Positions 4,677 through 24,405 of a DNA stretch of 29,928 nucleotides are shown piece by piece; positions within the stretch are counted from its first letter, which is position 1; every line of letters begins with the position of its first letter. The stretch is from a virus, in IMG/VR virus record IMGVR_UViG_3300030329_002747, positions 1-29,928 of that record; one strand, given 5' to 3'. A model generated the notes under the pieces. That model was not told the DNA's origin, ran no database searches, and saw nothing but the letters and a program-made list of their open reading frames with translations. Both the position numbers and the translations under genes were made by a program.

Positions 4677-4745
4677 ATAAATAATTAATACTTTATTAAC
4701 AATTACAATGTTAATATCTTTTTATTTTTATAAAGTTATTTTTAT

Positions 4746-4752: not shown

Positions 4753-4769
4753 CATAAAATTTATTGTTT

Positions 4770-8406: not shown

Positions 8407-8534
8407 AACAAAAAGGTTTTAAATTTTCCCCAAACAAAAGGAGAAAGAGAAAAGGAATACATGCTAAAAGTAAAATGAGTAAATTAAAAAGCTCACAGAA
8501 TTATTATAAAAAATACAAAGGACAGGGAAGGTGA
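8403..8534 (+). CDS. Small, very basic protein, 43 aa
   Basis: A 43-residue ORF with about 40 percent Lys plus Arg, including KRRKRKGIHAKSK and YYKKYKGQGR. Its start overlaps the previous stop and its end overlaps the GTG of the HNH gene. Proteins ending in a K-Y-x-G-Q-G-R motif next to packaging genes are, from memory, common in Bacteroidetes phages. The composition implies nucleic acid binding. No fold can be assigned. Confidence 0.6.
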   Translation: MKQKGFKFSPNKRRKRKGIHAKSKMSKLKSSQNYYKKYKGQGR

Positions 8535-8794: not shown

Positions 8795-9273
8795 TGAAAA
8801 TAGAAAAAGTTAAAATAGCAGAATTAAATCCTGCAGAGTATAACCCTAGAAGAATGACTAACAAACAATATGAGGATTTAAAAAACTCATTAGAAAAGTT
8901 TGGTCTAGTTGATCCTATAATAATAAATGCAGATAATACAGTAGTTGGTGGACATCAAAGATTAAGAATAATGAGAGAACTAGGTGCAGAGCTTGTACCA
9001 GTAGTTAGAGTAAATCTATCTAAAGAAGATGAGAAAGAATTAAACATAAGGTTAAACAAGAATACAGCAGAATGGGATATGGATATGCTATGTAACTTTG
9101 ATATAGATGATTTATTAGAATGGGGTTTTAAGCATATAGAACTCGGTTTTAATATAGACAAAATAGAAGAAGATAAACCAACAACAATAACAGTAAAAGA
9201 GAAAGACATAAAACTAGCTAATAAATTATATGAAGATTTAAAGGCAAAAGGATATAAAGTAACTATAAAATAA
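8794..9273 (+). CDS. Stand-alone ParB/sulfiredoxin-like domain protein
   Basis: Residues 1-100 form a ParB-like N-terminal domain: ELNPAEYNPRRMT, DLKNSLEKFGLVDPIIIN and the hallmark VVGGHQRLRIMRELG. The following segment (LNIRLNKNTAEWD, DLLEWGFKHIELGF) is what normally links this domain to a DNA methylase in phage ParB-methylase fusions, yet the methylase is missing and the protein ends at residue 159. ParB-like domains bind CTP or act as nucleases. Here it lies directly before the terminase genes, so a role in DNA modification or packaging is possible. The stop is 10 nt before the terminase small subunit. Confidence 0.8.
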   Translation: MKIEKVKIAELNPAEYNPRRMTNKQYEDLKNSLEKFGLVDPIIINADNTVVGGHQRLRIMRELGAELVPVVRVNLSKEDEKELNIRLNKNTAEWDMDMLCNFDIDDLLEWGFKHIELGFNIDKIEEDKPTTITVKEKDIKLANKLYEDLKAKGYKVTIK

Positions 9274-9283
9274 ATTTAATAAA

Positions 9284-9667
9284 ATGGGCAAAAAAGAACA
9301 TAACCTAAAGAAAGAAACATTACTAGCAGCTTTAGAAAATAGTCTAGGAATAGTCAGTACAGCTTGTAATAGATCAGGCATAAGTAGAAGTAGCTTTTAT
9401 AAATGGTATAAAGAAGATGAAGAATTTAGACAAAAGGTAGATGAGATAGATAACCTTAAACTAGATTTTGTAGAAAGCAAACTATTTAAGAATATAGAAA
9501 ACGAAAAAGAGAAAAGTATTATATTTTACCTACAACATAAAGGACACAAGAGAGGATATATACAAAGACAGAATATTAATCTAACATCAAACGAAGAAGA
9601 TATAAAAAAGATTGAAATTGAAATCATTGAATCTAAAGGGAACAGTAGTTCTACAAAAGAATCTTAA
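9284..9667 (+). CDS. terS: Terminase small subunit
   Basis: The 127-residue protein has an N-terminal helix-turn-helix (LGIVSTACNRSGISRSSFYKW, written here as IVSTACNRSG and SRSSFYKWYK), then a helical oligomerisation region (DNLKLDFVESKLFKNI) and the IIFYLQHKGHKRGY motif common to small terminase subunits. It recognises the packaging site on phage DNA and forms a ring that stimulates the large subunit. It precedes and overlaps the large-subunit gene by 56 nt. Confidence 0.85.
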   Translation: MGKKEHNLKKETLLAALENSLGIVSTACNRSGISRSSFYKWYKEDEEFRQKVDEIDNLKLDFVESKLFKNIENEKEKSIIFYLQHKGHKRGYIQRQNINLTSNEEDIKKIEIEIIESKGNSSSTKES

Positions 9668-10787
9668 TGCTAGTACAAGAATTGTAGTTAATCAAGGTGG
9701 TACAAGAAGTAGTAAGACATATAGTTTAGCTCAATTAATAATATTAAAAGCATTACAATCAAAGGGAAAGGTATATACTATTTGTAGAAAAACGCTACCT
9801 GCTCTTAAATCTTCTGCCTATAGAGATTTTTTTAATATATTAGAATCACACAATTTATACAATCCTGATAACCACAATAAGTCAGAGCTTACATATAAGC
9901 TAAATGGAAATACAATCGAATTTATTTCTGTGGATCAACCAGCAAAAGTGAGAGGTAGAAAAAGAAACTATGTTTGGTTAAATGAAGCTAATGAGTTTAG
10001 TTTTGAGGATTGGGTACAATTAACATTAAGAACAACAGAAAGAATCTATTTAGATTTTAACCCCTCTGATCCGTACAGTTGGATATATGATAATGTGTTA
10101 AATAGAGAAGATTGTACTTTTATTAAATCAACTTATTTAGATAACCCCTTTTTACCAGAAGAAACAATAAAGGAAATAGAAAGGCTAAAACAATTAGATA
10201 GTAACTATTGGACTATTTACGGTTTAGGTGATATGGCTCAACCTACTGAAACTATATTTAGACAGTTTGAGATATGTAACAATATACCAACAGAAGCAAC
10301 GCTAATTGCTTTAGGTATGGACTTTGGTTATTCTAATGATCCTACTGCAATAGCAGAAGTATATAAGCTCAATGATGATTTATATATTAATGAATTGTTA
10401 TACGCTAAAGGTTTAACTAATCAGGATATAGCAAACAAATTAAGAGAATTAGGAATAACAAGACAGACAGAGATTATAGCAGATAGTGCAGAGCCAAAAA
10501 GTATAGAAGAAATACATAGATTGGGGTTTAATGTAAAACCTGCAAAGAAAGGAGCAGATAGTATTAATATGGGGATTGATGTATTAAGAAGATTTAAAAT
10601 ACATATTACAAAGAATAGTACAAACGCTATAAATGAATTTAAGTATTATAAATGGCTAGTAGATAAGAATGGTAAAGTAATAAATAAACCTGCGACAAAT
10701 CAATTAGATCACTTAATAGACGCTATTAGATATACTGCATTAAACAAGCTAACTACTAATTATAGTGGTAAGTATTATATATTATGA
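9612..10787 (+). CDS. terL: Terminase large subunit (packaging ATPase and nuclease)
   Basis: A complete large terminase of about 390 residues. The ATPase domain has Walker A GGTRSSKT (29-36), an RKTLP coupling segment, Walker B YVWLNEAN (E125) and DFNPSDP. The RNase H-like nuclease domain shows MDFGYSNDPTA (D237), ADSAEP (D291) and QLDHLIDAIRY (D366, D370). It pumps DNA through the portal and cuts the concatemer. No ATG lies at the right place: TTG codons at 9612, 9618 and 9627 are the candidates, all inside the small-subunit gene. The one giving LNLKGTVVLQK (9627) also fits the usual family start. Unusually, the portal gene lies about 13.6 kb away. Confidence 0.97.
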   Translation: MKLKSLNLKGTVVLQKNLNASTRIVVNQGGTRSSKTYSLAQLIILKALQSKGKVYTICRKTLPALKSSAYRDFFNILESHNLYNPDNHNKSELTYKLNGNTIEFISVDQPAKVRGRKRNYVWLNEANEFSFEDWVQLTLRTTERIYLDFNPSDPYSWIYDNVLNREDCTFIKSTYLDNPFLPEETIKEIERLKQLDSNYWTIYGLGDMAQPTETIFRQFEICNNIPTEATLIALGMDFGYSNDPTAIAEVYKLNDDLYINELLYAKGLTNQDIANKLRELGITRQTEIIADSAEPKSIEEIHRLGFNVKPAKKGADSINMGIDVLRRFKIHITKNSTNAINEFKYYKWLVDKNGKVINKPATNQLDHLIDAIRYTALNKLTTNYSGKYYIL

Positions 10788-10813
10788 ACAAAATGGTTAA
10801 AATTATATTTATA
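10786..10813 (+). promoter_or_regulatory. Late promoter motif, copy A (GAACAA-N14-TATTTATA)
   Basis: GAACAA at 10786-10791 is followed after exactly 14 bases by TATTTATA at 10806-10813, 4 nt before the tail chaperone ATG. The same two blocks with the same spacing occur at 19655, 20706 and 23403, always upstream of a late gene. The closeness to the ATG implies a leaderless or nearly leaderless transcript if this is a promoter. Confidence 0.55.
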
Positions 10814-10817
10814 TAAA

Positions 10818-11438
10818 ATGGGGGAAAAAATAGAATTATTAATACCTACAGGTTGGGAAGATATATCTATAGGTATGTATCAAGATTTTATGGAACTCCA
10901 AGAAAAAAAGCTACCAGAAGATGAGATGATAGTAAGTGTAGTTTGTGTTCTTTGTAATGTTGATAAAGAAAAGTTAGTTAGGTTTAAATATAAAGACCTA
11001 AAAGATATAAGCTCTACACTTATAAAGTTTTTAAATAAAAAACCAGAAGAAAAGGAATTAGTTAAGAAAGTAGATTTTAAAGGAAAGAAGTATGGAATGA
11101 TACCAAATTTAAGCTCTATTAGTTTAGGTGAGTTTGTGGATATAGAAGAACATTGTAAGCATAGTCATAAAAACTTGCATAAGATAATGAGTGTTTTATA
11201 CAGACCTATTGTAAAAGAAAAAGGAACAAGATATAGTATTGAGAGTTATGATCCTGATAAATACAAAGAAGATATGTTTAGAGATTTTCCAATCTTAGTG
11301 TCTTTATCAGCTCTAAGTTTTTTTTTTCGTTTAGGGAAAAAACTTCCTCTCACTTTAAGCAATTATTTAGTGGTGGAACAGGAGAAGAAAGTGCTGAGGC
11401 TTCAGCAATTAGTGAAAAATGGGGGTGGTACAACATAG
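10818..11438 (+). CDS. Tail assembly chaperone, short (G-like) form
   Basis: The 206-residue zero-frame product: a mixed alpha/beta N-terminal half (LLIPTGWEDISIGMYQDF) and the KYGMIPNLSSISLGEFVDIE motif, similar to Bacteroidetes phage chaperones, ending in a polar tail after residue 170. Chaperones of this kind coat the tape measure during tail assembly and are made in short and frameshifted long forms. A T10 run at 11318-11327 lies in the overlap between this frame and a long frame in the -1 register. Context fits: the tail terminator candidate follows directly. Recognition rests mainly on context and on the frameshift architecture. Confidence 0.7.
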   Translation: MGEKIELLIPTGWEDISIGMYQDFMELQEKKLPEDEMIVSVVCVLCNVDKEKLVRFKYKDLKDISSTLIKFLNKKPEEKELVKKVDFKGKKYGMIPNLSSISLGEFVDIEEHCKHSHKNLHKIMSVLYRPIVKEKGTRYSIESYDPDKYKEDMFRDFPILVSLSALSFFFRLGKKLPLTLSNYLVVEQEKKVLRLQQLVKNGGGTT

Positions 11439-11578
11439 TATTTGGATTAGCTAACGATAACATATTAAACATAGAAGCAGTTACAAAATTAGAATTGTAT
11501 TTGGTTTTGACTTATATGAGCTATCAACAGGACAAAATAGGAGTACAACAAAGTAATTATAATAAATTTAAAAAATGA
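10818..11578 (+). CDS. Tail assembly chaperone, -1 frameshifted long (GT-like) form
   Basis: Shifting by -1 on the T run gives a fusion of about 253 residues: 170 from the zero frame and 83 from the -1 frame. The -1 frame is open from 11282 to 11575 and ends with TGA at 11576-11578, overlapping the next ATG. Its product is clearly protein-like (EKWGWYNIVFGLA, AVTKLELYLVLTYMSYQ), with the WGWY and helix pattern seen in GT-type extensions. It has no usable start of its own near its beginning, and without the shift 11439-11574 would be non-coding. A sequencing error in the homopolymer would give only the long protein. Confidence 0.7.
11318..11327 (+). other. Probable programmed -1 ribosomal frameshift site (T10)
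   Basis: Ten consecutive T residues contain T TTT TTT in the zero-frame phasing (T of AGT, then TTT TTT), a perfect X-XXY-YYZ slippery heptamer for -1 shifting. The zero frame and the -1 frame overlap from 11282 to 11438. A second A-rich run (GGGAAAAAAC, 11334-11343) follows but is not phased for a canonical -1 slip. Confidence 0.68.
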
Positions 11579-12087
11579 TAACATATAAAAATATAATAGA
11601 TGATTTTAGTACAATAGCTACGAATCATTATTTAATAAATTCTTTCCATAGTGGATTATTAGATGAGGTAGATATAGACAAAATGGATCAAAGTAATTTT
11701 CCTATTTTATATGTAGAGCCAGGCACAACAACAGCAGACACAGGTGTATTAACTTATACTTTTACTGTATTTACTATGAATTTACTTAAAGAAGATTTAA
11801 CTAATAGAGATGAGGTTTGGACGGAAATGCTACAAGTTATGCAAGATATAATAGCAGAGTTTAAACAAAACTTATCAGTACAGACATCAGGGGGAGATAG
11901 TGGTAAAAAATATAGTTATGTTCCTGGAGAAGTTGTTTTAGAAACACCTATAGATATTGATCCATTTACAGTTAGATTTTCTAATATGCTTACAGGTTGG
12001 TCTGCTACACTATCATTAGAAGTTAATAATCCTAATTCACTATGTAATGCTCCTATAGAACCTAGTGATGAACAAAGAGATTCATAA
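11575..12087 (+). CDS. Putative tail completion/terminator protein
   Basis: A 170-residue protein. The N-terminus MITYKNIIDDFSTIATNHYLINSFHSG and the central TYTFTVFTMNLLKEDLTNRDEVWTEMLQ match (by recalled pattern) a tail protein that follows the chaperone genes in flavobacterial siphophages. The beta-rich second half (PFTVRFSNMLTGWSATLSLEV) suits a tail-terminator ring. Its ATG overlaps the chaperone stop and its TAATGG overlap couples it to the next gene. Phage order (chaperone, completion proteins, tail proteins, tape measure) supports the role, but the exact ring position is uncertain. Confidence 0.5.
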   Translation: MITYKNIIDDFSTIATNHYLINSFHSGLLDEVDIDKMDQSNFPILYVEPGTTTADTGVLTYTFTVFTMNLLKEDLTNRDEVWTEMLQVMQDIIAEFKQNLSVQTSGGDSGKKYSYVPGEVVLETPIDIDPFTVRFSNMLTGWSATLSLEVNNPNSLCNAPIEPSDEQRDS

Positions 12088-12680
12088 TGGCTATTAGATT
12101 ACAATTACGAAACCCAGACGGTACTTTTGCTACAGGTAATTTAATGAATACTGAAAAGGTATTTACAAAGTTTGGTAGTAATGTTATTAAAGGTGGTAGA
12201 AAAATATTAAACCAAAAAAAGAAAAGAGCAAAAGGAACTTTATTTGATGACTTTCATTATACTTTAAACATTAAAAAAACAGCTATGGAAATGGGCTTTA
12301 GATTTGGTGGAGCAGAGAAGTATTGGGAATTTGTAGATGAGGGTGTAAAAGGAGCAGGTGGTTTTAAAGGTAGTGGTAGAATGAGAGGTCAAGGAAGTCC
12401 GTTTAAATTTAAAACAAAACAGCCGCCATTAAACGCTATATTGGGGTGGGTTAAATTAAAGGGATTATCAGGTAAAAGTCAAAGAGGTATAGCTTTTGCT
12501 ATAGCAAGAACAATAAAACAAAGAGGTTTAGAAAGAACACAATTTTATACTAAACCAGTAAATGAAGAATTAAAAAAACTACCTGATGATTTATTAAGAG
12601 GGTTTGCTAAAGATATGGATAAATTAATAAGTAGAATACCTAAAAAAATGGTAGTAGTAAAAGAGAAAATGACTACATAA
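12087..12680 (+). CDS. HK97 gp10-like tail/neck completion protein
   Basis: A basic 197-residue protein with the pattern of HK97-gp10-like factors: EMGFRFGGAEKYWEFVDEGV, a glycine-rich loop (GVKGAGGFKGSGRMRGQGSP), then PPLNAILGWVKLKGLS and GIAFAIARTIKQRGLERT followed by FYTKP. Such proteins complete the head-tail or neck joint. It is 1 nt overlapped with the preceding gene and 13 nt before the next tail gene. The assignment comes from motif memory and synteny. Confidence 0.6.
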   Translation: MAIRLQLRNPDGTFATGNLMNTEKVFTKFGSNVIKGGRKILNQKKKRAKGTLFDDFHYTLNIKKTAMEMGFRFGGAEKYWEFVDEGVKGAGGFKGSGRMRGQGSPFKFKTKQPPLNAILGWVKLKGLSGKSQRGIAFAIARTIKQRGLERTQFYTKPVNEELKKLPDDLLRGFAKDMDKLISRIPKKMVVVKEKMTT

Positions 12681-12693
12681 AAAATAGAAAAGA

Positions 12694-14145
12694 ATGGCTA
12701 CAACAATAACACAAAAACCAAATTTATTAAGTGCAGTAAATACACCTATGATTTATATACTAAAAGAAGCTACTCCTGGTACTTACAATGGTTTTAAATT
12801 TAGATATGTATTAAAAGTAGAAGTAAACGGAACAGAAATAGCAGTTATTAAAATACATAAGAATCAATCTAATGTAGGTGTATTTGATATTAGTCACATA
12901 CTAAAAACTTATGTAGAAACACAATTAGTAAATCAAAATAATACTGCTTATAGTATACATAGTTTAGGAATTATAGAAACAGGAAAGCCGTTTAGTCAGA
13001 ATAGAGGTCAATGTGCTAAAGTAGAAGTAAAAGCATTTACAGAAGTAGCAAGTTCTGCAACTACTTCACCTGAGTTATCTTCTCAACAAGCAAACGCTAT
13101 AAGCTATTATATACCTTCAACAACACCTTTTACTAAAACAGCAAGTAATGTAGGTGGTTTAGATATTAATGGATCTAATTATCCTTTGCAATATTTTTTA
13201 AATGACGACAGTTCAGAAGATAGTTATGGTTTTTTTACTAATGCTCCAACAGTACAATTTGTTAGAGGTAGTAGTACAAGTGCAGATAATTTAGATCAAC
13301 TAACAATATGCTTTAAACAAGGTAACAACGCTTCTAGTAGTTTAATAACAGACGGAGAAAAACTAGAACAAATGGCTATACAATATTACAATAGTGCAGG
13401 AACTTTAATTGCAGGTACAAGTGGTGGAGCTACTGTTCATTTTTTTGCTAATAGTAATGCTAATGGTGGAGCTACTGCTGCTCAATCTGATACTGTAGAA
13501 GAAGCTATATTATATTTTGGTTGTGGAACTAAAAACCTACAAACACAAGATGATACAACAAATGCAAGACCTAGTAATTTTTCTAATTGGGCTTATTATA
13601 GAATATTTGGTTGTACATCAGCAGATGTAGACGATAGGTGTACTAAATACTATTATTTTTATAGATATGGAGCTAGTAGAACAGGAATAGATGATAGACA
13701 CCAAAGCTGTACAAGATATGATAATATTAGATTAGCTTGGAGAAATAGATTAGGAGCTTGGGATTATATGAACTTTAGAGGTAAATCAATAAAAACATTA
13801 AGTATAGATAGTAGCGAAATGGAAAGCGTACCAGGAAATTGGGATACAGCCACAGAAGATACATTTAACTATAATAACTGGGATAGAGGAAAGAAAACAC
13901 TATTTAAAACTGCAACAAGAAAAATACAAATAAATTCTGATTTATTAAATGAAGATGAAGCAGTATGGTTAGAAGAATTATTTACTTCTGATAATGTTCA
14001 AATACTAGGTGATGATTATACTATTATATACCCTGTTGTTATTACTGATAAGGCATATACAACAAAGACAAGCGTAAATGATAAAGTACAAATAAAATAT
14101 ACAATTAATTTAGAATACGCAAACAAAGTAAGAACTAACAGCTAA
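12694..14145 (+). CDS. Minor tail protein (distal tail or tip component)
   Basis: A 483-residue beta-rich protein. The N-terminal part (about 1-115) looks like an immunoglobulin-like or Dit-type domain. The middle is Ser/Thr/Asn-rich with a cysteine-containing aromatic patch (YYYFYRYGAS, QSCTRYDNIRLAWRNR). The C-terminal segment contains RKIQINSDLLNEDEAVWLEEL and YPVVITDKAYTTKTS, motifs I associate with flavobacterial phage tail proteins. It overlaps the huge next gene by one base. A position in the distal tail or baseplate is inferred from its place directly before the tip protein. Confidence 0.55.
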   Translation: MATTITQKPNLLSAVNTPMIYILKEATPGTYNGFKFRYVLKVEVNGTEIAVIKIHKNQSNVGVFDISHILKTYVETQLVNQNNTAYSIHSLGIIETGKPFSQNRGQCAKVEVKAFTEVASSATTSPELSSQQANAISYYIPSTTPFTKTASNVGGLDINGSNYPLQYFLNDDSSEDSYGFFTNAPTVQFVRGSSTSADNLDQLTICFKQGNNASSSLITDGEKLEQMAIQYYNSAGTLIAGTSGGATVHFFANSNANGGATAAQSDTVEEAILYFGCGTKNLQTQDDTTNARPSNFSNWAYYRIFGCTSADVDDRCTKYYYFYRYGASRTGIDDRHQSCTRYDNIRLAWRNRLGAWDYMNFRGKSIKTLSIDSSEMESVPGNWDTATEDTFNYNNWDRGKKTLFKTATRKIQINSDLLNEDEAVWLEELFTSDNVQILGDDYTIIYPVVITDKAYTTKTSVNDKVQIKYTINLEYANKVRTNS

Positions 14146-17100
14146 TGAATGTAAGATTAGTAGCATATAGAAAAGTATTAACAACTGATAATGATACTAC
14201 ACAATTTGAGTTAGATTTAGCAGAAGCTCCTAATATTGTAGTTAATTATAATTGGTTAGATATTAAAGAACCTACCCAAAGAAAAGGTAGTTTTAGCCAA
14301 ACTCTTAAAGTACCTTTCTCTGATCGTAATAATGAATTTTTTGAGAATTGGTTTAATGTAAATTTAGACGCTTTAATATTTGACACCAACACTAAATTTG
14401 ACGCTAAAGTATATGTTGATACCGTAGAACAAATGCAAGGTTTTATACAATTAAAATCTATCTATTTAAACGCTAGACAATATGAAATAGTAGTATTTGG
14501 TAATAGTGCTAATTTCTTTACAGACATAAAAGATAAAAAGTTAAGACAAGCCTTTGAAAATGATAATAATGGTGTTATAACAAGTGATGAACAATTAGAC
14601 CACTATTTAACTTCTGCTAATGTAGTTAATAGTTGGACGGAGGGGACAGGTATATCTACAATAGGTACTGATCCTGTAACAAGTGCGAGTAGTAGTAAAG
14701 ATGTTATATATCCAGTTATAGATTATGCTTTAACTAAAAGACCTTATACAATGGGTATGTTTAGCAATCCTTATGGTGGTGGAGCAGGAACTTTTGAAAC
14801 TCAAAACGAGTTAGGAATGGTTAGGACTACTAACCTAAAACCAGCTTTAAAGATACAAAGGTTAATGAGAATAATTGCAGAAAAAGCTGGATACACGATT
14901 ACAAGTACATTTATGGGTATTGCACAAAGTGGAGCTTTAACTGACACAGGTTATTTTAGCCAGTTGTTTATGACTTTAGCTAATGATAAGCATAAAACTA
15001 AAACATATTTTAACGGTTTTGGTTTTCAAGTTTCTATGGCTGGAGCAGTAACTCAAAATGTATCTCCTGATGAGGATAACTGGACGAATCAAAGTATAAG
15101 AGAATTAGGATTTACAAATGAATCTGATCCTAATTTTGACGCTTTTGGTTTATTTGATGATAACACACAAACAGTACTAGGTAATACAGTAGATTTAAAC
15201 ACTATTTCTATGCCTTACACTGCTTTAGCTAACGAAATGGGTTTACCTGAAGGCTATGGAAATAACTTTGGTATAGAAGCAGAATTTGATATTAGTTTTC
15301 CAGCACAATATTATGACGCTAGTTCAACAGGAAATAAAGATATACTAACAGTAACAGCTTATTTAGAAAAGCAAAATATACCTTTTGGTGAATCAGATGA
15401 TAATTGGGAAATATGTTTTCAGCAGCAATTTGGAATATTTGGTAGTGCTTTAAATAATGCTAATTTTAGTGGACAATTTTGGTTAAATGATTTAGCAGAG
15501 GGTGGAGCAGTTAATTTGAGGTTAAGATTTCAAACAGTATCAGAATTATTTGGATTAATAACTGACGCTAATGATACAACTTCTATAACAGTAAATAGTG
15601 GAACTATAAGAAGTATTAATAACGGATTATCAGGTTATACTAATGCTAGTTATGGAATGCAGGTAGTAATGGCTGAAAATATGCCTAATATAAACCAATC
15701 AGATTTTGTAAGAGATTTAGTAAATAGATTTAACTTAGTTGTTTTAAATGACCCAGATAACTCTAATAACCTTATTATAGAGCCTTACCAAGATTATATA
15801 GGTAGTGGTACTACACAATACTGGACGGACAAATTAGACCTATCAAAAGAACAAGTAGTAAAATCAACAAATGAGCTGCAAAAAGAAAAATTTGTATTCT
15901 CTGATCTTGAAAGTACAGACCACTTAAACGAAAGATATACAGAAAAGTTTGACCAAGTTTATGGATCTAAAACAGAATATGGTGGAGATTTTAGTAGTGG
16001 TGAGGGAAAAAACTTTAGCGTATTTACACCTTTTATAACACAAGGAATACCAACACAAGATAGTTATTGGTCGTGGGGTGGTGATAGTGGAGTTAATGCT
16101 TGTGTAGGTCAAATGTATAAAATAAATGAAATTGAACCTATAGAAAGAGAGGGTATAACAGACGGTAAGCCTAGATTATTTTATTATAGTGGAAACCCTG
16201 TAGATTTATCTTTACCTAATGGCAATCCTGTACCAGAAACAAATAATGCTGCTTATAGTTTTCATATACTAGGATATAGTAGTACAACCCACGCTTCTAC
16301 AGGTAATAAATTTCCTATATGTAGTCAATATAATTTAGACAATTTAGATACAGGTATAGCTGCTACTACAAAAGCTCTTTTGTGGGATTGGGTAAGTCCT
16401 AGGTTTTCTAGTCCTTTTTGGTGTCATAATCCTTTTGGAACTAATATAACTGAAAAAGGATATTATTATGATTATTGGTCGCAATACTTTAATGAGATAT
16501 ATAATAAGGAAGCTAGAATAATGGAATGCTACTTAAATTTAACACCTACTGATATTGTAGAATTTGAAGCTAACGCTTTTAAAAACCCTGTATATATAAA
16601 AAATACTTTATGGAGAATTTTAAAAATAGACGGACATCTAATAGGTGGAAATAAATCAACTAAAGTAACTTTATTAAAAGCTATAGAAAAACTAAATTAT
16701 GATTGTTCTGGTGTGCCTGGTAGTTTTAATGCAGACGGAACTATTACTTTTGTAAACCCTGCAGACGGTACTACAGAAGTTACTATTACTAATGAATGTT
16801 GCGAAGATATAAATGATGATTGGACTTTTATGGTTACTAATGATAGTACAGGTGTTGGTACTTGTTATCATAATTTAAACACAGATATTGTAAATGGTGG
16901 TATTAGTGATGTTACAGGATCCATACAAGGAATAGGAGCTAATACTCCTGTAATGTTGCCTATGATTTCCTCAACTACTAATTCAATAGAAATAAGAAAA
17001 GGTAGTGTTACAGCTCAATATTCAACTGCTTTATTAGAATGTATTACAATAGGAACAACAACAGAGGATTTAAAAACACAAAATATAGCTAATTCTTTAA

Positions 17101-17513
17101 AGTTAAGTCCTTATAGTATGACTTATTTAGAAATAGATATTATAGGAACTATAGTAAAAGGAGCTAGTAATATAGGAGCTACTTTTTATGGTAAATATAG
17201 CACAATATTAAAAAGAAAACTAGCCTATGCTTTTGACGGTACAGCAGGGGGTGTTACTGTAAGAAAAACAGAGGGTACAGGTTTTCCAACAACACCTACA
17301 ATAGATTTAACAGAATTTACTGATAAAGGATATTTTAAAATTACTGTTACATCTAGTAGTGCTGATTATACTATTAAATGGGTAGCAAAAGCTAATTTTA
17401 TAGGGCAAAGGCTACCAGGATCAGACGGAACTAAATTATATCAAGATTTGGCTATCTATCAAAATGAAGATATAATATTATTCCAAAACAATGATGTATT
17501 AGAATGGAATTAA
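14145..17513 (+). CDS. Large tail tip/hub protein, probable receptor-binding role
   Basis: The largest protein in the genome (1122 residues). The first 600 or so residues are beta-rich with motifs such as VVNYNWLDIKEPTQRKGSFSQ (given here as NYNWLDIKEP and RKGSFSQTLKVPFS) and FVRDLVNRFNLVVLND, which resemble tail hub proteins that bind the tail tube. The C-terminal 270 residues (from about CSGVPGSFNADGTI, with a CCEDIND pair) are Thr/Gly-rich beta sandwiches, the usual make-up of receptor-binding domains. The order, before the tape measure, is reversed from lambda. A hub with receptor-binding extension is the most economical reading. Confidence 0.6.
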   Translation: MNVRLVAYRKVLTTDNDTTQFELDLAEAPNIVVNYNWLDIKEPTQRKGSFSQTLKVPFSDRNNEFFENWFNVNLDALIFDTNTKFDAKVYVDTVEQMQGFIQLKSIYLNARQYEIVVFGNSANFFTDIKDKKLRQAFENDNNGVITSDEQLDHYLTSANVVNSWTEGTGISTIGTDPVTSASSSKDVIYPVIDYALTKRPYTMGMFSNPYGGGAGTFETQNELGMVRTTNLKPALKIQRLMRIIAEKAGYTITSTFMGIAQSGALTDTGYFSQLFMTLANDKHKTKTYFNGFGFQVSMAGAVTQNVSPDEDNWTNQSIRELGFTNESDPNFDAFGLFDDNTQTVLGNTVDLNTISMPYTALANEMGLPEGYGNNFGIEAEFDISFPAQYYDASSTGNKDILTVTAYLEKQNIPFGESDDNWEICFQQQFGIFGSALNNANFSGQFWLNDLAEGGAVNLRLRFQTVSELFGLITDANDTTSITVNSGTIRSINNGLSGYTNASYGMQVVMAENMPNINQSDFVRDLVNRFNLVVLNDPDNSNNLIIEPYQDYIGSGTTQYWTDKLDLSKEQVVKSTNELQKEKFVFSDLESTDHLNERYTEKFDQVYGSKTEYGGDFSSGEGKNFSVFTPFITQGIPTQDSYWSWGGDSGVNACVGQMYKINEIEPIEREGITDGKPRLFYYSGNPVDLSLPNGNPVPETNNAAYSFHILGYSSTTHASTGNKFPICSQYNLDNLDTGIAATTKALLWDWVSPRFSSPFWCHNPFGTNITEKGYYYDYWSQYFNEIYNKEARIMECYLNLTPTDIVEFEANAFKNPVYIKNTLWRILKIDGHLIGGNKSTKVTLLKAIEKLNYDCSGVPGSFNADGTITFVNPADGTTEVTITNECCEDINDDWTFMVTNDSTGVGTCYHNLNTDIVNGGISDVTGSIQGIGANTPVMLPMISSTTNSIEIRKGSVTAQYSTALLECITIGTTTEDLKTQNIANSLKLSPYSMTYLEIDIIGTIVKGASNIGATFYGKYSTILKRKLAYAFDGTAGGVTVRKTEGTGFPTTPTIDLTEFTDKGYFKITVTSSSADYTIKWVAKANFIGQRLPGSDGTKLYQDLAIYQNEDIILFQNNDVLEWN

Positions 17514-17686
17514 AAGAAGAAATAAATATAAAAGGTTTGTACTTAACAGCAATATTAAAAATTGTGAGCAATATTAATTTTGAAGATAAAGATTATAATT
17601 TTGTTTATGGTATAGATGAGTACACAGAAGATATAAGTAAAATAAAAAAACAATTTAAAAGATTATGGCTAAACAAAAAAAGGTAA
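17504..17686 (+). CDS. Hypothetical protein, 60 aa
   Basis: A 60-residue frame starting 10 bases before the tip gene ends and finishing 22 bases inside the tape measure gene. It is largely helical (LYLTAILKIVSNINFEDKDYN) with a basic end (KKQFKRLWLNKKR). No family is recognised. Position between tip and tape measure suggests a small tail-assembly factor. The overlaps favour translation, but overlap with two large genes also lets it be partly fortuitous. Confidence 0.5.
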   Translation: MELKEEINIKGLYLTAILKIVSNINFEDKDYNFVYGIDEYTEDISKIKKQFKRLWLNKKR

Positions 17687-19656
17687 TTGAGCTAGAGGTA
17701 CAATCAACTAAAGCAGTACAAGGATTAGATAAAACCTCTAAAGCTATGAAAGGTGTAGGTACTTCAAGTACACTTGTTTCAAAAGGTTTTAAAGGTATAG
17801 CAGTGGCAATGAAGGCTATGGGTTGGGGTATTTTAATTGGTTTGTTAGCTGCAGTATTTGAGGCATTTAAAAGAAACCAAGCAGTAACAGATTTAGTAGC
17901 TAGAGGAATGGACACGCTACAAAAAGTAGTTAATGTAGTGGTAAAAGTATTTCAAGGAGCTTTAATAGTAGCAGACGCTTTAACTTTTGGCTTGTTTAGG
18001 TTATCAGGAGCAAGTGATAAAGCTAGTGCAAGTTTACAAAGACAAAGAAATGAAGTTAGATTACTACAAGCACAAGAACAATTAATTACTTTGCAATTTC
18101 AAAAATCTGCTGAAGTACAAAGACAAATTAGAGATGATGAAAGTAAATCTATAGAAGAAAGAAAAAATGCAAATCAAGAATTAGGTAGAATACTAGATGA
18201 GCAACACGCAGTTGAAATGAAAAACGCAAATAGGGCTTTAGAAGTAGCAGAAAATGAATTAAAAGCAAACAGTAATAGTATAGAGTTACAAGAAAAAGTA
18301 ATACAAGCAAAAACTAAAGTAGCAGAAGTTGACGAAAGGATTACAGGTCAAAGAAGTGAAATGTTAGTAAATATAAATTCATTAAATAGAGAAAACCAAC
18401 AATTAGCTAAAACTACAGGGGGTGTATCGACATCAGTTAAAGAAGCAACAAAATCTTATGAAGATTTAAACAAAGAAATAAAAACTGCTTTAGGATTAGA
18501 TAAAACAGTAGAAAGTATTACTAAACGAATTAAAGAAGCAACAGAGTTAAGAGCAGAAGCAATTAAAAAAGAAAAAGAAGAATTAGAAAAATTACAAGGA
18601 TCTGAAAAAAAGTTTAGAAAATCAAGTCAGAAAACACTTAAAGAATTAAAAGACAAACAAAGGGATATATTGTCTGAATGGACGGATACTTTATTTACAG
18701 TATACCAATATGATTTTAAATTATCAGAAAAAGAAAATGAAAGAAAAAGAAAAGAATTTGAAGCCAATAAACAAAGGATTGGAGATGAAATGACTTTAAT
18801 AAAAGAACAAATAAAAGAAGAAGAAGAAGCATTAAAAGGTAGAAATTCTAGGAGAAAGCGTAGAGTAACTAAACACAATAAAGAAGTAGAGGAAAAAATA
18901 GCTGAACACAAACAAAAAATGATAGATAGTGAAGATGAATTTAACAGAAAAATAGAAGAAGCTAGACAAATGGCTAGAGATGAGCTGGATTATTTTTTAG
19001 GTACGGATCAAGAAAAAGAACTTATAGATTTACAAGAACAATTTGATAAGCGTATGTTAATGGTAGAGGGTGATATAGCTAGTCAATTAAGATTACAAGA
19101 TTGGTTCGGTCAACAAATAATAGATATAAAACAAAAATACGCAGCTGAAGAAGCGAAAATAGAAAAAGATAAAGAAGACGAAATTTTTGCTCTAAAAACA
19201 CAAAGTATAGAAAAATCATTTGCAATAGCTTCTAGTTTAACTTCATCATTAGGAAAGTTAGCAAGTGATAATGTTAAAGCTCAAAAAAGTGCAGCTTTGT
19301 TAGGTATAACTATAGATACTGCTGCCTCTGTTTCAAGTGCTGTTAGGGGAGCTATAGCAGCAGCAAAAGGTAACCCAGTATTAACCCCTTTACTTATTGC
19401 AGAATTACTAGCTATTGTGTTTGGTGGTATGGCTCAAGCTAAAGGAATATTAGCTAAAGTACCTGGTGGTTCAGATAGTGGATCTCCTGATTTACAAAGT
19501 TTACAAGGTGGAATAGGAGTTGGTAGTGTACCTAGAGTGCCTACAGACAATAATATAGATTTAGATGTGCCACCTGTTCAAGCGTTTGTAGTAGAAAGTA
19601 ATGTTACAGGCAAACAGGCTTTACAAAATGACCTAGAGTTACAAGCAACGTTGTAA
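17665..19656 (+). CDS. Tape measure protein
   Basis: A 663-residue protein with tape measure architecture. The N-terminus has the repeat-like ELEVQSTKAVQGLDKTSKAM, a hydrophobic segment (about 45-70, GWGILIGLLAAVFEAF) and a second hydrophobic stretch near residue 95. Residues about 120-520 are long, charged coiled coil (Glu/Lys/Gln-rich). The C-terminal third has another hydrophobic region (TPLLIAELLAIVFGGM). Tape measures set tail length, at roughly 0.15 nm per residue, so a tail near 100 nm is inferred. It is preceded by the tip gene rather than followed by it. Confidence 0.88.
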   Translation: MAKQKKVIELEVQSTKAVQGLDKTSKAMKGVGTSSTLVSKGFKGIAVAMKAMGWGILIGLLAAVFEAFKRNQAVTDLVARGMDTLQKVVNVVVKVFQGALIVADALTFGLFRLSGASDKASASLQRQRNEVRLLQAQEQLITLQFQKSAEVQRQIRDDESKSIEERKNANQELGRILDEQHAVEMKNANRALEVAENELKANSNSIELQEKVIQAKTKVAEVDERITGQRSEMLVNINSLNRENQQLAKTTGGVSTSVKEATKSYEDLNKEIKTALGLDKTVESITKRIKEATELRAEAIKKEKEELEKLQGSEKKFRKSSQKTLKELKDKQRDILSEWTDTLFTVYQYDFKLSEKENERKRKEFEANKQRIGDEMTLIKEQIKEEEEALKGRNSRRKRRVTKHNKEVEEKIAEHKQKMIDSEDEFNRKIEEARQMARDELDYFLGTDQEKELIDLQEQFDKRMLMVEGDIASQLRLQDWFGQQIIDIKQKYAAEEAKIEKDKEDEIFALKTQSIEKSFAIASSLTSSLGKLASDNVKAQKSAALLGITIDTAASVSSAVRGAIAAAKGNPVLTPLLIAELLAIVFGGMAQAKGILAKVPGGSDSGSPDLQSLQGGIGVGSVPRVPTDNNIDLDVPPVQAFVVESNVTGKQALQNDLELQATL

Positions 19657-19682
19657 ACAAATATTAACAAATTATATTTATA
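19655..19682 (+). promoter_or_regulatory. Late promoter motif, copy B (AAACAA-N14-TATTTATA)
   Basis: AAACAA at 19655-19660, 14 bases, then TATTTATA at 19675-19682, only 3 nt before the ATG of the protease gene. The first block overlaps the tape measure stop. It shares the TGTAAACAA context and spacing with copies A, C and D. Confidence 0.55.
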
Positions 19683-19685
19683 AGT

Positions 19686-20699
19686 ATGAGCAAAGAAAAA
19701 CTAAAAAAAGTAGAACTAATTATAGATGAAGAATCAGAGAGATTTGGTGTTGAAGCAATCAGCTTAGTAGAGTTTCCAGCGATAGAGTCGGACTGGGTTT
19801 TTTTTAATCAAGACCAATTCTTAACTTTAGCTAAATTAGATGAAGAACAAAAAACTTTAGTAGGAGCAGTATTAATACCTAATAAAGAAATTCCTAGATA
19901 CGATCAAGAAAAAGACGAGAAGTATATTGTTTATTTTACAGAAGATACTATAAAACAAGCTCAGGAACTATTTATGTCAAGTTTAAGAAACAATAGTGCT
20001 ACTTATGAGCATAAAGTACCAGTAGAAGGAATGACAGTTGTAGAGAGTTGGATTAAAGAAGATAAGAAAAACGATAAATCTAATTCTTTTGGTTTTAATA
20101 AACTTCCACTTGGAACTTGGTTTGTAAAAATGAAAGTTAACAATCCTGAAATTTGGGATAGTGTAAAAGAGGGTAAAGTAAGAGGGTTTAGTATTGAGGG
20201 ATATTTCACAGACAAATTAATTGAAGCGTCAAGACCTAAAGATATTATAGATCTAGCAGAAGATTGTACTGATTGCCCTGATGAGATTACATTAGGAAAA
20301 ATTAGAGATTTAATATTAGAGAATGAATTAGCAGTTGTAGGAGCTTTAGATGGAGAACCTTTATTTGCCACAAAAGAAGAAGCTAAGATATATGCTGAAA
20401 TGTTTAAAGGGTGTAAAGGTTTCCATACACATACAGTAAATGGTGTAGTTAGATACATGGCTTGTGAAACACACGAAGATAGTGTTAAGAAAGAATATGT
20501 AGAAAATGAGTTTGGTAAAAAGAAAAAGAAATATACTAAAAAATATAAATACGCAGAATACGCTGCTTTTGTAAATAGACAGGCTATGGCTGTTTATAAA
20601 TGGGATCAATGTATAAGAGATATGGTAAAAGAATATGGTAGCAAAGAAACTGCTGCCAAAGTATGTTCTGCCATTAAAAATAGGACAGTAAAACGCTAG
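19686..20699 (+). CDS. XkdF-like prohead protease
   Basis: A 337-residue protein matching the XkdF-like putative serine protease family of Bacteroidetes phages: RFGVEAISLVEFPAIESDW, LVGAVLIPNKEIPRYD, YIVYFTEDTIKQAQELFM, the TYEHKVPVEGMTVVESW stretch and GKVRGFSIEGYF. The protease matures the capsid by trimming the scaffold and capsid termini. A C-terminal domain (about residues 200-337) contains a CTDCP motif, a His-rich CKGFHTH segment and a basic tail with WDQCIRDMVKEYG. Its place before scaffold and capsid genes supports the role. It starts 3 nt after a late promoter motif. Confidence 0.8.
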   Translation: MSKEKLKKVELIIDEESERFGVEAISLVEFPAIESDWVFFNQDQFLTLAKLDEEQKTLVGAVLIPNKEIPRYDQEKDEKYIVYFTEDTIKQAQELFMSSLRNNSATYEHKVPVEGMTVVESWIKEDKKNDKSNSFGFNKLPLGTWFVKMKVNNPEIWDSVKEGKVRGFSIEGYFTDKLIEASRPKDIIDLAEDCTDCPDEITLGKIRDLILENELAVVGALDGEPLFATKEEAKIYAEMFKGCKGFHTHTVNGVVRYMACETHEDSVKKEYVENEFGKKKKKYTKKYKYAEYAAFVNRQAMAVYKWDQCIRDMVKEYGSKETAAKVCSAIKNRTVKR

Positions 20700-20705
20700 T
20701 CCTGT

Positions 20706-20733
20706 GAACAATAATTTAAGTTTAATATTTATA
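20706..20733 (+). promoter_or_regulatory. Late promoter motif, copy C (GAACAA-N14-TATTTATA)
   Basis: GAACAA at 20706-20711 is followed after 14 bases by TATTTATA at 20726-20733. The scaffold ATG is 14 nt further on, behind an A-rich stretch that may serve as the ribosome entry region. Confidence 0.58.
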
Positions 20734-20747
20734 AAAAAAAAGTAACA

Positions 20748-21407
20748 ATGAGTACACTAGAAAAAATCAAAACGCTTTTATCTTCTAATAACGAAGAAAG
20801 CAAAGAAACAAAAATGTATGCTGAAATGATTTTAGATGACGGTAGAGTATTAGCAACAGAAGATGAGCAATTTATGATAGGCTCAAAAGTTATGGTTGTT
20901 GGTGATGACGGTGAAACTTCCCCACTAGGAGCAGGTAGCTACACAATGTCTGACGGAGCTAAATTAACTATAGATGAAGATTCTAAAATAGTTGATATGG
21001 GTGAAGAAAAAGAAGCAGAAGATGTAGAAGCTGAAAAAGAAGAAATGGCAGACGCAGAAGATACTGATTGGGCTAAAACTTTTGAAGAAATGAAAGATAG
21101 AGTTGCGGCTTTAGAAAAAGAAGTATTTGGAGATAAAGCAGAAGAAGAAACAGAAGAAATGTCAAAAGAAGAAGTTGAAGAAGAAGTTATTGAAGAAGAT
21201 GAAAAAGTAGAAATGTCTAAAGATATGGTAAACAGTTTAGTTGAAGAAGTAGAACACTTAAAAGCTAAAATTGTTGAATTAGAAAAAGAACCAGGAGCAG
21301 AGGGTTTTACTCACAATCCTGAAAATAATACTAAATCAGTAGAAAAAGTTGATTTAGCTACAATGTCTGCAAGTGAAAGAGCAGCATATTACATTAATAA
21401 TAAATAA
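20748..21407 (+). CDS. Capsid scaffold protein
   Basis: A 219-residue, very acidic protein. Residues 1-85 are beta-rich (KMYAEMILDDGRVLATEDEQ; ILDDGR and GAGSYTMSDG), and residues 85-190 are Glu/Lys-rich coiled coil, the signature of phage scaffolds. The protein sits between the protease and the major capsid protein, where scaffolds always lie. It should form the transient core for procapsid assembly and be removed by the protease. No enzymatic motif is seen. The C-terminal TMSASERAAYYIN may be the capsid-binding helix. Confidence 0.75.
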   Translation: MSTLEKIKTLLSSNNEESKETKMYAEMILDDGRVLATEDEQFMIGSKVMVVGDDGETSPLGAGSYTMSDGAKLTIDEDSKIVDMGEEKEAEDVEAEKEEMADAEDTDWAKTFEEMKDRVAALEKEVFGDKAEEETEEMSKEEVEEEVIEEDEKVEMSKDMVNSLVEEVEHLKAKIVELEKEPGAEGFTHNPENNTKSVEKVDLATMSASERAAYYINNK

Positions 21408-21423
21408 TTAAAATTTTAAAAAA

Positions 21424-22419
21424 ATGGCGAAATTAAATGAATTAAACAAACAGTACCATTTTGATGTTACTGTTAACCCTGCAACTACTTACGCAGGTGA
21501 ACAAGCACTGCCTTATGTAACTGCTGCGGTTAAGTCAAATGACACAGTAGCTAAGGGCTATGTAAGAACAATGGACGGTTTAACAAGTAAAGCGGTTATT
21601 AGTAGTTTAGTAACTACTGATCCTATTGTTGGAGCTGCTTGTGGCTTTTCTGACGCAGGGACTACTACATTAGGAGAAAGAGTATTAACTGTTACTGATC
21701 TAAAAGTAAATCGTGAGGTATGCCGAAAAACTTTATTCCCAACTTGGGTTGGAAAAAATATGACTCAAAACGGAGATTTACCTAATAGCTTTTCTGACTT
21801 CTTATTAGAAGTTGTTGCAGGTCAAGCTTCTGCTCAAATAGAAAATGGTATTTGGGTAGGTGACGCTTCAGGAATATTTGGAGCAGGTTTTGTTTCTGAT
21901 GACGGAGTATTTGACCAATTAGGTCTTAATGCTTCTGCAACTGCAGATTTTACACAAGTTACAATGAATGGTGTAGGTACTGCAACTGACGCTACTAATA
22001 TAGATAACGCTTTAGCAGCAGTATATGATACTGTTACAGGTAGTCACCCAGGACTTGAATTTAAAGAGGGTTTTGGATTCTATATGAATAACAAAATGTA
22101 TAGTTTTTATGCACAGTATTTAGCAGGTGTATCTACAGGGCAGGGTATTAATATGTTAGGTTTAACATTAAATCCTGAAAACCTTAGTTATTTAGGTCAC
22201 CCCATATACAGGTGTCCTGGAGCCCCAGACGATTGCATAGTTGCAACATACAAAGACAACTTAGTATTTGGTACTAACTTAGGAACAGACCTAACTGAAG
22301 CTCAAATTATTCCAACTTACCAATATGACGGTAGTGATAATGTAAGAGTTGTTATGAACTTTGGAATTGGAGTACAGACAGGAATTGGAACTGACGGAGT
22401 TGTTGGTGTTACATTCTAA
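21424..22419 (+). CDS. Major capsid protein
   Basis: A 331-residue protein of HK97-fold size, directly after protease and scaffold and followed by a strong terminator. It has an N-terminal arm (to about 50), then a mostly beta/alpha domain with VNREVCRKTLFPTWVGKNM, SFSDFLLEVVAGQASAQIE, FYMNNKMYSFYAQYLAG and LSYLGHPIYRCPG; the end DNVRVVMNFGIGVQTGIG is typical of Bacteroidetes phage capsids. The codon and context bias is unlike its neighbours: Asp codons before Gly/Ala are nearly all GAC, consistent with high expression. Capsid assembly is the clear role. No cleavage site was determined. Confidence 0.88.
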   Translation: MAKLNELNKQYHFDVTVNPATTYAGEQALPYVTAAVKSNDTVAKGYVRTMDGLTSKAVISSLVTTDPIVGAACGFSDAGTTTLGERVLTVTDLKVNREVCRKTLFPTWVGKNMTQNGDLPNSFSDFLLEVVAGQASAQIENGIWVGDASGIFGAGFVSDDGVFDQLGLNASATADFTQVTMNGVGTATDATNIDNALAAVYDTVTGSHPGLEFKEGFGFYMNNKMYSFYAQYLAGVSTGQGINMLGLTLNPENLSYLGHPIYRCPGAPDDCIVATYKDNLVFGTNLGTDLTEAQIIPTYQYDGSDNVRVVMNFGIGVQTGIGTDGVVGVTF

Positions 22420-22432
22420 ATTGAATTAAATT

Positions 22433-22462
22433 AAGGGGTATGAAATACTACCCCTTTTTTTT
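22433..22462 (+). terminator. Rho-independent terminator after the capsid gene
   Basis: AAGGGGTA (22433-22440) pairs with TACCCCTT (22449-22456) around an 8-nt loop and runs into 8 consecutive T residues (22455-22462). It should end most capsid transcripts and leaves some read-through to the following tail gene, which has no matching late promoter motif. Confidence 0.85.
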
Positions 22463-22496
22463 AAAAGGAATATTAATAATTAAAAAATAAATAAAC

Positions 22497-23099
22497 ATGG
22501 CTTGTAATTTAACAAAAGGTTTAGCAGTTGATTGTAAAGACCAGATAGGTGGCTTAAAGCGTATTTTCTTTGTAAAGTCATATTGTAAAGACATTAGAGC
22601 TAACGCTACTTTTGATGGCACAGATACTAATGTTATGGATACAGCAGGGTTTGCTAACTGGGATATACAAAGTGGTGGAGCTGTAACAGTATTTCAATAT
22701 GATTTAAGACCTAATCTATCTTCAATGACAGTAAACTTTAATAGTGATCCTGCAACAGGAACTACTTTTTTTGAACAAACTTTGTCTATTACTATGCAAA
22801 AATTAAGCGTTGCTCAAAGTAATGAACTTAAATTAATTTCTTATAATAGAAGTCAAATTTTTGTTCTTGATATGAACAACAATTTATTTTTGTTAGGTAT
22901 GGATAATGGAATGGACGTATCAGGTGGTACTGCTGTATCAGGAGCAGCTAAATCAGATATGACAGGATTTACCCTAGAGCTTAGAGGTGAAGAATCTGAC
23001 CCATTAATTTGGATTAATGCAACTGCTGGTGTAGCAACTGCTAAATACCCATTTGATGGTTTAACTGATGAAGCAAATTTAACTATTACTACAGGATAA
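22497..23099 (+). CDS. Probable major tail (tube) protein
   Basis: A 200-residue beta-rich protein: LAVDCKDQIGGLKRIFFVKSY, GGAVTVFQYDLRPNLSS, FFEQTLSITMQKLSVAQSNE and GFTLELRGEESDPLIWIN. Size, strand pattern and position between capsid and connector genes fit the tail tube protein of flavobacterial siphophages. No chaperone or tube gene with a better match is present near the tape measure, so this is the best candidate. A head decoration protein is the main alternative. It lies between two terminators, suggesting a separately controlled, abundant transcript. Confidence 0.5.
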   Translation: MACNLTKGLAVDCKDQIGGLKRIFFVKSYCKDIRANATFDGTDTNVMDTAGFANWDIQSGGAVTVFQYDLRPNLSSMTVNFNSDPATGTTFFEQTLSITMQKLSVAQSNELKLISYNRSQIFVLDMNNNLFLLGMDNGMDVSGGTAVSGAAKSDMTGFTLELRGEESDPLIWINATAGVATAKYPFDGLTDEANLTITTG

Positions 23100-23122
23100 T
23101 AATAAATCGTTACTGAAAAAAG

Positions 23123-23150
23123 AAAGGGAGCAAATTAGCTCCCTTTTTTT
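23123..23150. terminator. Bidirectional rho-independent terminator
   Basis: AAAGGGAGC (23123-23131) and GCTCCCTTT (23138-23146) form a 9-bp stem with a 6-nt loop (AAATTA). On the plus strand it is followed by a T run to 23150. On the minus strand the stem is followed by T-rich sequence (CTTTTTTC), so it should also stop the leftward small gene at 23169-23306. Confidence 0.85.
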
Positions 23151-23168
23151 ATTAAATACTTTTATTGA

Positions 23169-23306
23169 TTACCAAGCAAATGGTGTCATTAATTTTACCA
23201 ATTCTTTTAATCTTTTTTCTATTTTTGGAGTTGATTTATTACTGTTTTTTAATAACATTAATTTTGACAACTCATTACTTAATTTTGAATATTCTTTATA
23301 TGTCAT
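23169..23306 (-). CDS. Small basic helical protein, 45 aa, antisense to the late block
   Basis: A 45-residue minus-strand ORF in an otherwise rightward region: MTYKEYSKLSNELSKLMLL, then TPKIEKRLKELVKLMTPFAW. It has heptad-like leucines and ends in a distinctive aromatic TPFAW, and its start is preceded by AAGTA as at 4623. It is flanked by a bidirectional terminator downstream and a divergent region with late promoter motif D upstream. Expression is inferred from composition and position. Without the ORF the stretch 23151-23400 would be an unusually long gap for this genome. Confidence 0.5.
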   Translation of the reverse strand: MTYKEYSKLSNELSKLMLLKNSNKSTPKIEKRLKELVKLMTPFAW

Positions 23307-23402
23307 TACTTGTTTGTTTTAATTAATATACTTAAATATATAAAAAAAATTTAATATATATACTATAATTATTAAATATTTTTAATAAAAAGTACAAGTT
23401 GT

Positions 23403-23430
23403 GAACAATATAATGACTTTTATATTTATA
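23403..23430 (+). promoter_or_regulatory. Late promoter motif, copy D (GAACAA-N14-TATTTATA)
   Basis: GAACAA at 23403-23408, 14 bases, TATTTATA at 23423-23430, ATG 12 nt later at 23443. The block is preceded by TTGT like copy B. The divergent region 23307-23442 thus serves the small minus-strand gene on one side and the connector/portal block on the other. Confidence 0.58.
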
Positions 23431-23442: not shown

Positions 23443-23661
23443 ATGGCTTGGAAAGTAAAAGAACAATACAAAGATTTTAAACCCTTAAATATGAACTTGG
23501 CTTATGGTGAGTTAAGACCTCATCAAGTAAATAATTTAAGTGATGAAGTAAAAGAAAAGTATTTTACAAACGAATCTAAAAGTAAAAAGAAAAAGGTAAA
23601 AACTAAAGAGGTTAAAGTAGAAGAAGATTTAGATTTTATAGGGGGTAACAATGGGAACTAA
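23443..23661 (+). CDS. Hypothetical protein, 72 aa
   Basis: A longer frame begins with GTG at 23401, but that start lies inside the promoter motif, so the ATG at 23443 (MAWKVKEQYKDFKPLN) is chosen. The 72-residue product has LAYGELRPHQVNNLSDEVKEKYF, then a lysine-rich stretch (SKKKKVKTKEVKVEEDLDF) and an Asn/Gly tail. It resembles the small proteins that precede portal genes in Bacteroidetes phages, of unknown role. It is the first gene of the transcription unit that includes portal and connectors. Confidence 0.65.
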   Translation: MAWKVKEQYKDFKPLNMNLAYGELRPHQVNNLSDEVKEKYFTNESKSKKKKVKTKEVKVEEDLDFIGGNNGN

Positions 23662-23794: not shown

Positions 23795-24405
23795 TGGCTA
23801 CATACAATTTAAATTATACAAGTGGAATGGCACAAACTCAATATGTATATTTTTATGAAAATATTACAAGTGCTATTGATACAAGTTTAATATCTGGTAA
23901 ATTTTTATTGTTTTATATAAGAGGTCGTAAGACAAATTGGATAAGAACTGTTGCTGCTTACCCTACTGATAGTGAAGATTATAATAGTCCTACTTGGTTA
24001 AATAATAATAGATATTGGACTTTAAGGCTAACAACTGTATATCCTACTACAAGTAATATATCTAATTTTGACACTACAAATAATTTAGCTAAAAGACAGG
24101 GAGCTTTTGTGCCTCCTATTAATGAAACATACGATATAGATTTATATTATACCTCACAAAATTATTTAAATGTTTTAAGAACAGATTTAGCTACAAAAAT
24201 AGACGGTATAAATATAGTTTTAAATGTTACAGTAGATAAAGGGTTTTTATCAGATCATTCACAAGATTTACCTATAAGCTATTATACAGAATATGCAAAT
24301 AATGATTTAATAGAAGCTAGTGTACCTTTAGAGGGATATAGCGATAGTAACAATAGAGATAATCAATATGGTACTCAAAATTGGCAACCAACATACGATT
24401 CATAA
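23794..24405 (+). CDS. Virion protein candidate, 203 aa
   Basis: A 203-residue beta-rich protein with many Tyr, Asn and Thr residues (TQYVYFYENITSAID, LLFYIRGRKTNWIRTV, GINIVLNVTVDKGFLSDH). No known motif is seen. The composition is that of surface or decoration proteins. It overlaps the preceding and following genes by one to three bases, so it is co-translated with the portal. I would call it a structural protein, with low certainty about location. Confidence 0.5.
   Translation: MATYNLNYTSGMAQTQYVYFYENITSAIDTSLISGKFLLFYIRGRKTNWIRTVAAYPTDSEDYNSPTWLNNNRYWTLRLTTVYPTTSNISNFDTTNNLAKRQGAFVPPINETYDIDLYYTSQNYLNVLRTDLATKIDGINIVLNVTVDKGFLSDHSQDLPISYYTEYANNDLIEASVPLEGYSDSNNRDNQYGTQNWQPTYDS

Follow-up and report, generated by a model that had tools for sequence, protein, structure and literature searches.

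Late transcription through a phage-encoded sigma factor is known from phages phiEco32 and 7-11, in which the sigma factor redirects the host polymerase to the structural genes via a short phage-specific motif and early genes use host promoters (PMC4331800). The subject of this analysis is a two-block motif, RAACAA-N14-TATTTATA, and a sigma-like protein encoded in the IMG/VR virus record IMGVR_UViG_3300030329_002747, which was analysed as a whole (29,928 bases; hereafter the window). The gp36 protein of phiEco32 is of the extracytoplasmic function (ECF)-like type. The family of the window phage resembles phiEco32 and 7-11 in combining a phage-encoded sigma-like protein and a phage-specific motif for structural genes with host-type promoters for early genes. 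It differs in that the phiEco32 motif (TAATGTATA) is a single -10-type block, whereas the window family has two blocks at fixed spacing, and in that its members are Bacteroidota phages with predicted nearly leaderless starts. Phage sigma factors with late motifs are already known from phiEco32 and 7-11, and the set in these probably flavobacterial phages would be a variant of that kind.

Among isolated phages, the closest capsid protein was that of the Nonlabens phage P12024L/S (Nonlabens being given also as Persicivirga; Inhavirus), with 24% identity, and the host of the window phage is on that account probably a flavobacterium. P12024L/S has a syntenic sigma protein (gp35) and seven late sites with AACAA at the same position, but its -10 box is CGTTAATA and its spacer is usually 15. 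The T4 late promoters (TATAAATA, gp55) also have an AT-rich -10-type box for late genes and a phage sigma-like factor, but the T4 box is in reverse orientation and without a -35 block, unlike TATTTATA with its obligatory AACAA. Bacteroidota sigma-A promoters (TTTG / TAnnTTTG) are approached by the late box, of which TATATTTA is one base from TAnnTTTG; the window family differs by a terminal A for G, AACAA for TTTG, and fixed spacing. A nucleotide search of the window against isolated phages gave no match. No description of late promoters in (marine) flavobacterial phages was found in the open literature, subscription papers being outside the search, and neither sigma factors nor promoters are mentioned in a study of flavophages from the North Sea.

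The two-block motif in the window and in its family

A preliminary description of this DNA had listed four copies of the motif, and all four were recovered on the + strand (A, 10786-10813; B, 19655-19682; C, 20706-20733; D, 23403-23430), each with the claimed 14 nt between blocks. These predicted late promoters lie 4, 3, 14 and 12 nt before the ATG codons at 10818, 19686, 20748 and 23443, respectively, within the range of 3-14 nt given earlier (position weight matrix (PWM) scores 24.2, 28.4, 27.0 and 30.4). The total of four did not hold, as a fifth exact copy at 7788-7815 (+ strand; PWM 22.6) had been overlooked. The two blocks were real, but the length given for them fell short of the family consensus, TTRTRAACAA-N10-TT-TATATWTATW, whose spacer sequence is variable. 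Exact matches in the window numbered 5 on the + strand, 0 on the - strand and 0 for the pattern read backwards, and occurred at a spacing of 14 only when spacings 5 to 25 were scanned. Simulated sequences of window length contained a mean of 0.025 (order-1 Markov) or 0.02 (order-3) copies, with a maximum of 1. With 3 mismatches allowed, 70 matches were found vs 53.5 +/- 7.4 expected, not clearly over chance in this AT-rich background, so that the motif signal resides in the exact copies.

Relatives were obtained by a capsid-protein search of IMG/VR, which returned 80 loci. Parsed two bases earlier, as AACAA-N12-TATATTTA, the motif occurred 113 times in 63 of the 80 capsid-homologue loci, always on the capsid strand and with a sharp single spacing, almost none being found at others. 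For 36 window genes, the sequences upstream of their orthologues were compared (at most 2 mismatches; unique upstreams counted), and the motif preceded the orthologues of exactly the four genes listed in the preliminary description (92-96%): 23/24 for the gene after the terminase, 71/77 for the protease, 70/75 for the scaffold-like gene and 24/25 for the gene at 23443. The remaining 32 genes carried it in a small fraction of upstreams at most (highest 4/22, for the gene at 4770), and the capsid gene itself was without it. Across the family, the distance from motif to ATG ranged from 3 to 20 nt and the internal spacing was constant. Scanning of the whole records of 27 family genomes gave 79 matches, 78 of them on the majority strand of the genome, and 1 match for the backwards control. 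The strict motif was present in at least 120 IMG/VR loci. Among those listed, 92 carry family proteins, and 114 of their 121 strict matches were within 22 nt of an ATG; the other 28 of 120 listed loci had no family homologue, and 22/28 such matches were without a nearby ATG. Chance was considered as the explanation for pattern matches in loci outside the family.

The fifth copy lies inside the sigma-like gene, 222 nt from the next start codon, and on the simplest reading its position and conservation suggest an intragenic late promoter for the terminase block (8038-10787). The nine codons under it had a synonymous purity of 0.997, vs 0.837 for codons of the same amino acids in the rest of the gene (34 distinct sigma genes; observed purity reached in 0 of 20,000 permutations), and the motif windows ranked top of 145 along the gene. 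Variants in which the lysine of codon 87 is replaced by glutamate still spell GAACAA in the DNA. The peptide would encode the exact motif by codon usage alone with a probability of 0.13, hence the mere presence of this copy is unremarkable and its conservation remarkable. It was restricted to the window's own subclade. Downstream of it, the gene g8038 (8038-8406, + strand) and the terminase genes were otherwise without the motif; the large terminase gene (9654-10787, + strand) had none directly upstream in relatives, and is probably served by the predicted promoter at 7788. In P12024L the counterpart is a late motif at 22059, between the gene of sigma protein gp35 and that of gp37, the g8038 homologue (BLASTP E=2e-10).

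The sigma-like protein and its counterparts in distant phages

The sigma-like gene (7527-8054, + strand, GTG start) encodes 175 amino acids, weakly matched phrog_1740 (sigma factor; E=9.8e-4), and is proposed to supply the ECF-like sigma factor that reads the late promoters. An alignment of 23 sigma sequences had DLLHE at region 2 and a helix-turn-helix at the C terminus. The AlphaFold2 (AF2) model was helical and two-part, with a mean predicted local distance difference test (pLDDT) of 76 and a predicted template modelling score (pTM) of 0.47, a value that leaves the position of the two parts relative to each other uncertain. Length and modelled architecture are consistent with those of ECF factors, which have regions 2 and 4 only and about 150-200 residues. 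In a Foldseek search of the PDB, sigma factors ranked first, mostly of the ECF type, and nearly all best matches were sigma factors; matches extended over nearly the whole chain and included a chain of an RNA-guided transcription complex, sigH, sigL, sigE, SigK and SigW. The viral structure models that were matched are annotated as sigma-70/RpoE. All 27 family records longer than 21.2 kb had the gene, including 21 selected by capsid only, and the 12 family records without it were all shorter than these. No relative turned up among GTDB genomes scanned with the sigma alignment. In one record (G005:C1:17930-18424, the record behind L140) the sigma homologue had one in-frame TGA; that genome is otherwise normal for the family and has one strict late motif.

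Gene order in P12024L was as in the window (VRR-NUC / sigma / g8038 homologue / terminase). Its gp35 is annotated as sigma-70 region 2, which was confirmed by Pfam (PF04542, 25.2 bits; cut-off 24). Direct profile comparison of the window protein with gp35 was not significant overall and aligned region 2 alone, so that their homology rests on synteny; this is a main gap in the comparison. Seven late starts of P12024L were preceded by AACAA-N15-CGTTA (six) or by the same blocks with N14 (one). In the P12024L clade, 29 sites had spacing 15 and at most 3 had any other spacing, and 27/29 unique sites were within 10 nt of an ATG. A wide search for this code gave mostly single scattered matches. A further genome, G044, had a capsid 67% identical to that of P12024L, and a sigma protein 35% identical over 80 residues and below the Pfam cut-off, encoded in the same place and adjoining a g8038 homologue. 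The CGTTA code was lacking in G044 (1 match), in which AACAA-N14-AGTTWTAATA preceded the protease, the portal block and the gene after the terminase. The evidence for this third code is a single genome with few sites (4 exact, of which 3 precede an ATG), another main gap, and in five further distant contigs the pattern gave no clear second sites.

The AAC core had been likened to the -35 element of ECF factors in the preliminary description, and this likeness was supported: RAACAA in the window family and AACAA in P12024L and G044 are kept across lineages. Before the gene after the terminase, AACAA began 31 nt upstream of the ATG in the window and in 7 of 8 contigs with distant sigma homologues (G044, L425-L430, L434; AACAG in L430), despite various -10 boxes; L432 was the exception. 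That the -35 keeps its distance from the ATG whatever the -10 box is consistent with a transcription start at or beside the AUG. By these comparisons of predicted promoters, the -35 AACAA is constant and the -10 differs between sigma lineages. There is a somewhat better than even case for a deep lineage of Bacteroidota phages with a syntenic ECF-like sigma factor, in which the late -10 would have diversified (TATTTATA, CGTTAATA, AGTTWTAATA and others) with AACAA and its distance from the start codon fixed, a promoter within the sigma gene, and many leaderless late mRNAs. In a subclade (L133, L160, L178, L180, L189) the late -10 is modified (TATATATAC) and the sigma protein divergent (L260, L261), possibly a further promoter code.

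Marine flavobacterial phages are abundant, and the motif set provides a sequence-only marker of late genes for a large uncultured family; P12024L, being isolated, makes the promoter set directly testable. The syntenic sigma series, in which a single -35 goes with several -10 boxes, lends itself readily to work on how region 2 of a sigma factor alters its DNA specificity, and the promoter series could supply orthogonal promoter parts for Bacteroidota.

Candidate readers of the late motif

That the phage ECF-like sigma factor, bound to host core RNA polymerase, recognises the late promoters is the reading in which we have considerable, though not full, confidence. The preliminary description had proposed both promoters and this sigma link, and both gained support. 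The analysis shows the gene association, strand, spacing and conservation of the motif, and also the presence of the sigma-like gene across the family, its synteny and the predicted fold of its product; from these we infer promoter activity, recognition, timing and start sites. As in phiEco32-like sets of phage-sigma late promoters, the motif is shared by structural genes alone and confined to the late strand. (T)RAACAA as -35 and TATTTATA as -10, at fixed spacing, would form the late promoter, to be read by host core polymerase with the 7527-8054 product. Host-type promoters (TTTG-N-TAnnTTTG) would start the early operons, the sigma gene included, and its product would then switch on five late units: the terminase block (7788), the tail block (10786), the protease (19655), scaffold plus capsid (20706; driven by copy C, with the terminator-like hairpin near 22433 as its end) and the portal block (23403). 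Several start codons are so near the -10 that the mRNAs would probably be leaderless or nearly so, which the preliminary description had soundly proposed for some copies; in F. psychrophilum, leaderless mRNAs are a minority of 5.5% (PMC9723704). Related phages would have retained the -35 core AACAA and changed the -10 with the sigma lineage.

Several results weigh against this reading. Pfam models, those of sigma-70 included, did not match the window protein, for which reason it is termed ECF-like and not filed as an ECF member. The Foldseek E-values against the PDB were weak (best 8e-3). Every family member has sigma gene and motif alike, so that their co-occurrence there cannot tell a causal link from common descent. 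Two sigma subclades of the window family differ in region 2.4 and have the same -10. The -10 also resembles the host -7 box, leaving room for a host sigma factor.

The resemblance of the -10 to the host box is greater than had been implied by the preliminary description, which correctly told the two apart: TATATTTA matches 7/8 positions of the host -7 box. Host sigma-A might then read TATATTTA, with a phage DNA-binding activator on AACAA taking the place of contacts at the -33 element, in the manner of T4 MotA and host sigma-70; an inverted repeat TTGT-NN-ACAA in some copies and the small helix-turn-helix proteins encoded by the phage fit such an arrangement. It is nevertheless unlikely, as the final G of the host TAnnTTTG was A in 97-100% of family late sites, relatives carry CGTTAATA or AGTTWTAATA at this place and not host sigma-A boxes, the TTGT half was not kept across the family, and the ECF-like sigma gene is conserved in synteny. 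The repeat TTGT-NN-ACAA was also considered as a palindromic operator and rejected, being present in some copies but not in the family at large.

Flavobacteria have several ECF sigma factors of their own, and the CGT-box promoters of F. psychrophilum (PMC9723704) resemble the P12024L -10, so a host-encoded ECF factor could read the late promoters and the phage protein have another role. This is very improbable: late expression would hang on a host stress regulator, a universal and syntenic phage sigma gene would be left without targets, and the motif is specific to the phage strand and marks late genes only. Its place directly before start codons, together with the use by flavobacterial ribosomes of A-rich upstream sequence instead of a Shine-Dalgarno sequence (PMC6847099), would suit an mRNA or translation-initiation element before highly expressed genes; we give this even less credence, since the distance to ATG varies from 3 to 20 nt with the internal spacing fixed, the capsid gene itself lacks the motif, one conserved copy is inside a gene, 222 nt from the next start, and two blocks separated by an unconserved spacer are as expected for the recognition of DNA by a protein. 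Homology to the T4 late box was ruled out by the reverse orientation, the obligatory AACAA partner block and the CGTTAATA or AGTTWTAATA of relatives, in support of the coincidence suggested in the preliminary description.

Gene layout, predicted early promoters and minor sites

A direct terminal repeat of 99 bases (1-99 = 29830-29928) marks the record as a complete unit of about 29.83 kb. Leftward from about 4.6 kb the genes are those of nucleotide metabolism; the early and late blocks are oriented to the right. PHROG and Pfam searches matched the terminase, protease and portal genes to known families, the large terminase with PF04466 (E=3.8e-32) and the head maturation protease (19686-20699, + strand) with PF14550 Peptidase_S78_2 (E=3.3e-19). 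The gene after the large terminase (10818-11438, + strand), called tail chaperone in the preliminary description, matched phrog_32199, of unknown function. The scaffold-like gene (20748-21407, + strand) sits between protease and capsid and weakly matched phrog_24921, and a terminator-like hairpin with a T tract follows the major capsid gene (22433-22456, + strand). A 72-residue gene (23443-23661, + strand) opens the portal block. The portal protein (24402-26624) has a long C-terminal extension, with a phrog_2859 match at 409-529, and a second head protein may have been fused to it. The conserved, Cys-containing g8038 protein (CGCEERR...CSPC) stays beside the sigma gene even in very distant phages, and could be a transcription partner or a packaging protein.

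For contrast with the late motif, a perfect host promoter, TTTG-N21-TATATTTG, was found at 4645-4677 (- strand) before the leftward early operon, and the upstreams of the rightward early gene had mostly TAnnTTTG or a near variant. In the divergent early region at 4630-4770, TATCTTGC in the rightward direction fits the F. psychrophilum SM5 box TAnnTTGY (PMC9723704). A weak sixth candidate of the late motif, ATACAA-N14-TATTTATA (29078-29105, + strand; PWM 15.3), lies inside the gene at 28833-29318. It was kept in close relatives only, with a variable spacer (synonymous test p=0.097), and is possibly a weak promoter for lysis genes across the terminal junction.

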